Positions 47,755 to 49,088 of a stretch of DNA of 64,000 nt are shown piece by piece. This DNA comes from a virus, in the IMG/VR virus record IMGVR_UViG_3300020420_000008, positions 1 to 64,000 of that record; one strand, written 5' to 3'. Under the pieces are notes generated by a model, which searched no databases, was not told where the DNA came from, and saw only the letters and a program-made list of their open reading frames with translations. Within the stretch, counting starts at the first letter, position 1; each line of letters opens with the position of its first letter. A program made the translations under genes and the position numbers.

Positions 47755-47772
47755 AATAAATAAAAAAAGTAC

Positions 47773-47804
47773 TTGACGAATCACGAATCAATATGCTATA
47801 AATA
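47773..47804 (+). promoter_or_regulatory. Promoter of the tmRNA/tRNA unit
   Basis: TTGACG 47773-47778, 18-base spacer with TG extension, TATAAATA 47797-47804. As at 39955, the -10 is at the same time a full late box, so the unit could be transcribed both early and late. Predicted +1 near 47809. Confidence 0.7.
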
Positions 47805-47808
47805 AAGA

Positions 47809-48145
47809 GTTCGTTGAGACTAAGATGAAACTAGACTGGACATGGGGGCGGTACCCATCACCTCCACCAAGAGTACTTGCTCAGTACAACGCCTTCGTAG
47901 CTTCACAAGAGACAGTTCTTGAGACAGTTCGATGAAGACAAGAGTGGTAAGACACTTTAGAGTTTTTTGATAGTGGCGTATCAACAAGTATTCCTGTGGG
48001 GGTGAAATAGGATCGACAGGTAGGTAGTAGGTTAGTGGAGAACATTAAACTAAATGCAAACGATGATTTTGCACCTGTGGATTACGCACTAGCGGCTTAA
48101 TCGCACCGAGTTTAGAGAGTGTACTTGGGAACAGAAACACTCTCA
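47809..48145 (+). ncRNA. ssrA: Circularly permuted (two-piece) tmRNA
   Basis: The acceptor piece comes first and ends with CACCTCC-A-CCA at 47859-47869; its T-arm is ATGGG 47842-47846 / CCCAT 47854-47858. The coding piece starts at 47998 with GGGGGTG, which pairs along 7 bp with CACCTCC. The intervening RNA is closed by GAGTACTTG 47871-47879 / CAAGTATTC 47985-47993, stacking on the acceptor stem. The tag reading frame is 48056-48100: ANDDFAPVDYALAA then TAA. It ends in LAA, the ClpXP-type signal. A tag-distal stem (GAGAGTGT/ACACTCTC) lies before the tRNA. Ends of the mature pieces are estimates. The T-loop lacks the usual TTC. Confidence 0.88.
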
Positions 48146-48153
48146 CAGAATTT

Positions 48154-48227
48154 GCGAGTGTAGTATAATGGCATTATTTCTAGTTACCAACTAGAAGACA
48201 GAGGTTCGAATCCTCTCATTCGCTCCA
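48154..48227 (+). tRNA. tRNA-Gly, anticodon ACC
   Basis: Acceptor GCGAGTG 48154-48160 pairs with CATTCGC 48217-48223; discriminator T and encoded CCA end at 48227. Anticodon stem TCTAG/CTAGA encloses loop TTACCAA with ACC at 48186-48188. T-arm AGAGG/CCTCT has the canonical TTCGAAT loop. G1-C72, C2-G71, U73, C35 and C36 are glycine identity elements. The D stem is short (about 3 bp). ACC reads GGT, the dominant Gly codon here. Confidence 0.92.
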
Positions 48228-48229
48228 AG

Positions 48230-48460
48230 TTTTACTCCGACGGGAGTAAAAGTGGTGCAAGGAAGAGTCCTGATGACAAGAGGGACAAACTTGACTACTT
48301 AGGGGTGGTACCCAGGATTTGAAAAACGAATACTTAGAAATAAGGGCTAGTTTAACAAGTTCACATCATCATACCAGATGAAAGTAGGTTCTGGCATAAA
48401 TGGAAGATATGCTATCTTGTGATGTCAGTTGAGGGTAAAAGCGAGTCCCTCCCACACTAA
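48230..48460 (+). ncRNA. Structured RNA of unknown type downstream of tRNA-Gly
   Basis: No convincing ORF. Inverted repeats seen: TTTTACTCC 48230-48238 / GGAGTAAAA 48243-48251 (perfect, GACG loop), ACATCA 48363-48368 / TGATGT 48420-48425 enclosing two hairpins (CCAGA/TCTGG and AAGATA/TATCTT), and GAGGG 48431-48435 / CCCTC 48447-48451. It lies in the same transcript as tmRNA and tRNA and before the terminator. I could not match it to RNase P, 6S or group I intron cores. Confidence 0.5.
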
Positions 48461-48465
48461 ATTTA

Positions 48466-48500
48466 AAAAGGTATTAGAAGCAGTTCTGATACCTTTTTTT
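48466..48500 (+). terminator. Intrinsic terminator of the RNA unit
   Basis: GGTATTAGAA 48470-48479 pairs with TTCTGATACC 48484-48493 (one T-G wobble), loop GCAG, flanked by an A-run and followed by seven T. Confidence 0.93.
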
Positions 48501-48502
48501 AT

Positions 48503-48510
48503 TATAAATA
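48503..48510 (+). promoter_or_regulatory. T4-type late promoter box
   Basis: TATAAATA immediately after the terminator and 83 bases before the ATG at 48594. Confidence 0.7.
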
Positions 48511-48593: not shown

Positions 48594-49088
48594 ATGATAG
48601 ATCCAATATCAGCAATGGCTGTAGCAGGCACCGCATTCTCAGCAATCAAGAAAGGCATACAACTAGGTAAAGATGTAGAGTCTATGTATGGTGATATAGG
48701 TAGATGGATGGGTGCAATCTCTGATGTTAATCAGGCAGAGAAGAATGCAAAGAATCCGCCATTCTATAAAAAGGTGTTTAGTGGTTCATCGATAGAAGAA
48801 GAGGCTATGAATGCCTTTGCCGCCAAGAAAAAGGCAGAGGAGATGGAATATGAACTGAAACAATATATTATGTTTACACATGGGGCATCTGCATGGGACG
48901 AACTGATTCGTATGCAAGGTAAGATACGTAAAGAACGTCAAGAGATGATTTATGCAAGAGAAAAGCAAAGAGAAAAAATAGTTAATATTATCATATGCAC
49001 TATAGGTATAGGAATTATAGTAGCACTACTAGGTTGGTTCGCATGGTTCGTTTTTCAAACAAGTTACTTATTCGCAGGCTTTCGCTAA
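48594..49088 (+). CDS. Conserved protein with C-terminal membrane helix, unknown
   Basis: 164 aa. N-terminal MIDPISAMAVAGTAFSAIKKGI and a central charged helix recall a family in T4-like marine phages. C-terminal membrane segment (IIICTIGIGIIVALLGWFAWFVF). Late box and AAGGTAAAG ribosome site upstream. Possibly a virion-associated or lysis-related membrane protein. Confidence 0.7.
   Translation: MIDPISAMAVAGTAFSAIKKGIQLGKDVESMYGDIGRWMGAISDVNQAEKNAKNPPFYKKVFSGSSIEEEAMNAFAAKKKAEEMEYELKQYIMFTHGASAWDELIRMQGKIRKERQEMIYAREKQREKIVNIIICTIGIGIIVALLGWFAWFVFQTSYLFAGFR

Follow-up and report, generated by a model that had tools for sequence, protein, structure and literature searches.

The window, which is the whole stretch of 64,000 nucleotides that was analysed, belongs to a virus record of 146,609 bp and carries at positions 47809-48145 a circularly permuted tmRNA of the two-piece type, with a match far above chance. 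The gene is part of an operon that runs from a promoter through the tmRNA, with a second structured RNA nested inside it, to a tRNA-Gly(ACC), a manA RNA and a terminator (Table 1).

Table 1. Features of the tmRNA operon, with positions in the window, strand and the basis of each assignment
Feature	Position	Strand	Basis
Promoter TTGACG, 18 nt, TATAAA; same layout before the tmRNA in L012, L016, L052, L066 and L085	47773-47804	+	sequence
tmRNA acceptor piece, CCA-ending, with T arm and encoded CCA	47809-47869	+	sequence, ARAGORN, Rfam
tmRNA intervening segment, 128 nt, expected to be absent from the mature tmRNA	47870-47997	+	sequence, Rfam, fold
Nested pseudoknotted structured RNA (model R1), six helices including the inferred loop pseudoknot	47873-47992	+	alignment, covariance model
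tmRNA 5' mRNA-like piece; end hairpin 48115-48122/48137-48144	47998-48145	+	sequence, Rfam, fold
Tag reading frame ANDDFAPVDYALAA*; resume codon GCA, stop TAA	48056-48100	+	ARAGORN, sequence
tRNA-Gly, anticodon ACC, encoded CCA	48154-48227	+	ARAGORN, Rfam
manA RNA motif (RF01745), 68.0 bits (cut-off 55.2), full length	48233-48460	+	Rfam
Intrinsic terminator directly 3' of manA, kept in 11 contigs	48465-48505	+	sequence
Next gene, 164 aa, function unassigned (phrog_32327)	48594-49088	+	

The permuted tmRNA and its operon

Two Rfam tmRNA models match over their full span and above their curated cut-offs: alpha_tmRNA (RF01849) at window positions 47770-48145 with 89.1 bits (cut-off 50, E 8e-23) and tmRNA_permuted (RF04321) at 47819-48100 with 85.3 bits (cut-off 47). 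ARAGORN calls a permuted tmRNA (tmRNA*) with the tag ANDDFAPVDYALAA, and both checks suggested in a preliminary description of this DNA, the alpha_tmRNA model and a tmRNA finder, are thus positive. The anatomy which that description had read from the letters is also present: the CCA-ending CACCTCC-A-CCA (47859-47869) lies upstream of GGGGGTG (47998-48004), the two pair over 7 bp (47859-47865/47998-48004) including G3.U70, the alanine identity pair, and a closing stem of 9 bp (47871-47879/47985-47993) is found in the minimum-energy fold (z -3.96). The tag is complete and, as had been noticed, in frame from the resume codon to its TAA end; it ends in ALAA, a hydrophobic degron. From this arrangement we infer a mature two-piece form from which the intervening segment is excised.

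A T4-type late motif, TATAAATA (47797-47804), overlaps the -10 element of the tmRNA promoter (TTGACG-N18-TATAAATA). The same late-promoter-like motif recurs at 48503-48510, just past the terminator (48465-48498 when delimited more narrowly), and the two copies possibly provide early plus late expression.

The tRNA-Gly has an anticodon, ACC, that is described as nearly absent from tRNA-Gly of all organisms (PMC6720975). This anticodon is conserved in six contigs, with pairwise variation in the anticodon stem (TCTAG/CTAGA, TTTGG/CCAAA, TCTGG/CCAGA); the main Gly codon is GGT (296 of 494 in 17 ORFs).

A manA motif stands 3' of the tmRNA, with or without the tRNA-Gly, in 16 records (the window and L012, L016, L039, L053, L056, L066, L086, L088, L091, L094, L097, L125, L129, L139 and L142). 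In the lineage of the window, a terminator whose stem varies comes next, and TATAAATA after it. For a motif classed as a 5' UTR element this placement is unusual: the window has manA after the tRNA-Gly and before the terminator rather than in a metabolic gene's 5' UTR. Here manA may serve as a switch that attenuates transcription of the next gene, or else form the 3' part of the RNA operon. To our knowledge, the function of manA is unproven, and its recurring pairing with a tmRNA offers a new handle on it.

The carrier phage and the origin of its tmRNA

The record encodes the T4-type proteins gp43, gp32, RNR, PhoH, a gp5-like baseplate hub and a tail tube cap and, judged by these replication and baseplate genes, the carrier phage is T4-like. 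Rfam, ARAGORN and the phage genes together support what had been proposed from the sequence, a permuted tmRNA of two-piece and alphaproteobacterial type in a T4-like phage. The accompanying statement that none had been described in such a phage was wrong: a permuted two-piece tmRNA of the alphaproteobacterial type has been published for Melnitz, a Methylophilales phage that is T4-like and belongs to the Kyanoviridae (PMC9004378), and any claim to a first case in T4-like phages therefore fails. By 2021, 53 unique two-piece tmRNAs had been counted in phage genomes (PMC9004378), and the tmRNA database holds 79 phage tmRNA sequences (PMC11915505).

The isolates nearest to the DNA polymerase of the record are Synechococcus myophages, at only 49% identity, which does not allow a host assignment. 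A search of the record for CsgG found none, and there is thus no curli link to pelagimyophages or to Melnitz. A rough tree, built on about 210 positions, places the tmRNA of the window within a phage clade that also contains Melnitz and other viral contigs and is separate from the sampled bacteria (a limited sample, as these were picked by one pattern); near relatives with the same tmRNA occur in other contigs. Uptake of ssrA from an alphaproteobacterial host, as had been suggested, remains plausible as such; a recent uptake is not supported, because the tmRNA is placed inside the phage clade.

The tag had also been described as more acidic than that of the host. This holds against most tags of the sampled alphaproteobacteria, for example ANDNFAPVALAA. 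Together with the failure to find a phage SmpB in the 146,609-bp record and the precedent of the tag-less tmRNA of phage DS6A, which inhibits host tmRNA (PMC11915505), this acidity could be taken to mean that the phage tmRNA does not serve normal rescue but diverts host trans-translation, as a competitor or by its modified tag. We regard this as improbable: the tag is complete, with ALAA at its end, and the alanine identity is intact, both of which fit normal tagging, and the sequence carries no sign of inhibition.

A nested RNA and other contents of the intervening segment

The intervening segment contains a second, separate folded RNA that appears to be undescribed: when Rfam 15 was searched over 47873-47992 at E up to 5, no family was found except the spanning tmRNA models. 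The copy of the window, a training member of the covariance model R1, scores 107 bits with it, and the inner part of the closing stem (47874-47879/47985-47990) doubles as P1 of the nested RNA. Across 23 aligned distinct copies, pairing is kept in 97.1% of 617 cells and 18 of the 27 pairs are changed on both sides; there are 110 doubly changed cells, whereas shuffles give 30.1 +/- 4.2, and the covariation score of 0.517 compares to 0.176 in shuffles and at most 0.091 in slid controls, all counts being inflated by kinship among the copies. RNAalifold, run unguided, recovered the same helices with the exception of the pseudoknot, which is beyond its scope. Compensatory changes are present in all five helices that show variation, and in the divergent copies of L082, L132 and L137 the sequences of P1 and P5 are different, with the pairing kept. 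The pseudoknot, CGCC in a 5' strand with GGCG in a hairpin loop, is invariant across the copies; its pairs never vary, so that covariation is no test of them, and it is a putative element only. A protein-coding nature of the nested element was rejected, because the copies do not share their reading frames, while their helices covary.

Pattern scans and the covariance model identified the nested RNA in 45 records, 17 times within a permuted tmRNA (the window, L012, L024, L052, L066, L072, L083, L085, L086, L088, L091, L094, L097, L125, L129, L139 and L142, including L085, whose contig stops short of the second tmRNA piece) and 28 times free-standing; most of these related loci are uncultured viral contigs. 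The R1 search, covering 646 kb with an E limit of 1, gave 45 matches and not one below 93 bits; looser pattern scans returned only unrelated sequences (L147-L151). Carriers of free-standing copies include T7-like phages (for example L093, with a T7-type DNA polymerase and primase/helicase) and one phage that encodes PolA and a helicase (L144). The nested RNA is a candidate for a new structured-RNA family across unrelated marine phages. Several free-standing copies adjoin tRNA genes (tRNA-Leu in L082; tRNA-Trp in L089, L124, L131 and L136). L137 and L143 represent a phage type that is rich in tRNAs (18 tRNA genes on L143) and has a PurZ-like gene; here the nested RNA follows a one-piece tmRNA (RF00023, 81.5 bits) at a distance of 3 nt. 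The one-piece tmRNAs of these two contigs (L137, 794-1255, minus strand; L143, 6755-7216, minus strand) have an unusual short tag, DEPLLMAA. The repeated proximity to tRNA and tmRNA genes suggests that the nested RNA may have a part in how phages control translation.

Searches of 9 alphaproteobacterial genomes, and of 385 with stricter filters, gave no match to the nested RNA; these results are weak, as there was no positive bacterial control and the genome profile search missed even the 68-bit manA of the window, which cmscan finds. A blastn search with two free-standing copies against sequenced phage isolates had no match either.

Several features would suit a nested RNA that serves the tmRNA gene in cis, as a folding, processing or riboswitch-like module for the two-piece tmRNA or for neighbouring genes: P1 stacks on the closing stem beside both predicted cleavage sites, the conserved loops and the pseudoknot are aptamer-like, in some T7-like phages (L093, L096) about 17 nt separate the end of the RNA from a start codon, and regulatory RNAs follow the tmRNA both in Melnitz (glutamine riboswitch) and in the window (manA motif). 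However, what lies downstream varies, being a tRNA-Trp in L089, L131 and L136, an extra hairpin in L087 and L090, a tRNA-Leu in L082 and a tRNA-Lys in L137, which makes a single cis-regulated gene unlikely. Moreover, closely related tmRNAs are without the nested RNA (L016, L053), and the position after a one-piece tmRNA involves no intervening segment at all. We therefore consider a cis element rather unlikely. The variable context favours, but does not prove, a nested RNA that acts on its own; the chances of such an independent role in trans appear about even, and we rate it above a purely cis role.

Contigs differ greatly in the length and sequence of their intervening segments. The L016-type tmRNAs have a loop of 51 nt without nested RNA, and L052 has the nested RNA at exactly the site that is empty in L016, between identical outer flanks (TAAACACTC...GAGTGTTTATGAT). 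In L012 and L024, the nested RNA is followed by an ORF of 38 codons that reaches the 5' piece of the tmRNA. Other loops have an ORF and no nested RNA (L047/L049/L069, L013/L021/L042, L007/L017/L030/L045, L018, L022/L062 and L023), and the tmRNA models score above cut-off wherever these contigs were scanned. The loop ORFs of L047 and L069 differ at 6, 0 and 24 sites in first, second and third codon positions, with 23 synonymous and 5 nonsynonymous codons (dN 0.031, dS 1.33), a pattern that clearly indicates purifying selection on this pair. A homologue with 70% identity is encoded outside the tmRNA in L038, whose tmRNA belongs to the same tree branch. The loop ORF of L013/L021/L042 is a DUF6356 protein (E 5e-12); those of L018, L022 and L023 are open frames only and not established as genes. 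Recurrence of several ORF-bearing loops in independent metagenomes argues against misassembly. The phage origin of the ORF-loop contigs relies mainly on the IMG/VR call, with PHROG support for L012 (helicase loader) and L018 (tail) and less specific support for L042 and L069. The loops of the L009/L020, L029, L044 and L054 tmRNAs (58-87 nt) have stem-like ends and no reported Rfam match where scanned; they possibly hold other structured cargo.

This diversity, and the fact that bacterial segments are usually short and unconserved, could also be expected from an ordinary phage tmRNA whose segment is a neutral dumping site with contents that are functionless there. Such an explanation is disfavoured and seems very improbable, given the compensatory changes in all five varying helices, the purifying selection on loop ORFs and the conservation of the nested RNA outside tmRNA too.

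The tmRNA loop as a possible cargo site

Our preferred explanation, which we consider fairly probable, is a dedicated non-coding RNA operon with a two-piece tmRNA whose loop carries cargo, either a second structured RNA or small genes. The anatomy bears most weight, beside the covariation, the recurrence of the nested RNA outside tmRNA and the cargo ORFs, all of which were observed directly. The acceptor stem of 7 bp would keep both tmRNA pieces together in the folded transcript, while host RNase P would cut before 47998 and host 3' processing would act after the CCA at 47869, freeing the 128-nt segment. The two-piece tmRNA would be charged with alanine through G3.U70 and, presumably with host SmpB, rescue stalled ribosomes and append ANDDFAPVDYALAA; cleavage, charging, SmpB use and tagging are predicted here from the sequence of the window. 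The same cuts would release the nested RNA, a member of a phage-borne family, much like a small RNA carried by an intron. In related marine phages, small protein genes occupy the loop site instead of or besides the nested RNA, which suggests that a permuted tmRNA is also a cargo carrier.

A wider proposal, to which we give slightly less than even chances, is that the loop of permuted tmRNAs of marine phages is in general a cargo site, from which tmRNA processing frees either a pseudoknotted RNA that acts in trans and belongs to an undescribed phage family with links to tRNA and tmRNA genes, or a small mRNA. Intervening segments of permuted tmRNAs are usually regarded as discarded spacer. If the proposal is true, tmRNA synthesis would also yield a second phage RNA or protein from presumed waste. 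The conserved RNA and the selected genes in the loops give a concrete answer to the question of what a phage may gain from a permuted tmRNA. What appears to be new here is the content of the intervening segment, as we found no report in the open-access literature of genes or structured RNAs inside the intervening segments of permuted tmRNAs; the presence of a permuted tmRNA in a T4-like phage was known.

Among the closest known systems is the ssrA of Melnitz (MZ577095-98, PMC9004378), likewise a permuted tmRNA of alphaproteobacterial type in a marine T4-like myophage and with a similar promoter. Both have a structured regulatory RNA directly 3' of the tmRNA, but this is a glutamine riboswitch in Melnitz, whereas the window has the tRNA-Gly plus manA. 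The tags differ (ANDNYVPVDYALAA in Melnitz, ANDDFAPVDYALAA in the window) and so do the loops: that of Melnitz is without nested RNA and has an ORF-like stretch. In comparison to other permuted tmRNAs, the segment of 128 nt with its conserved structured RNA stands apart from the about 7-72 nt of most compared bacterial genomes. Foreign RNA within a tmRNA gene is also known from group I introns (the "intron" form), sometimes with an ORF for a homing endonuclease; these introns are self-splicing, while the cargo of the window lies in a segment predicted to be excised by tRNA-type processing. The manA RNA motif has marine samples and cyanophages among its known sources (Weinberg et al. 2010, PMC2864571), and the copy of the window resembles the class in being full length, at 68 bits; it differs in position, as the known class belongs to the 5' UTRs of metabolic genes and the copy of the window stands last in a tmRNA-tRNA operon, ahead of a terminator.
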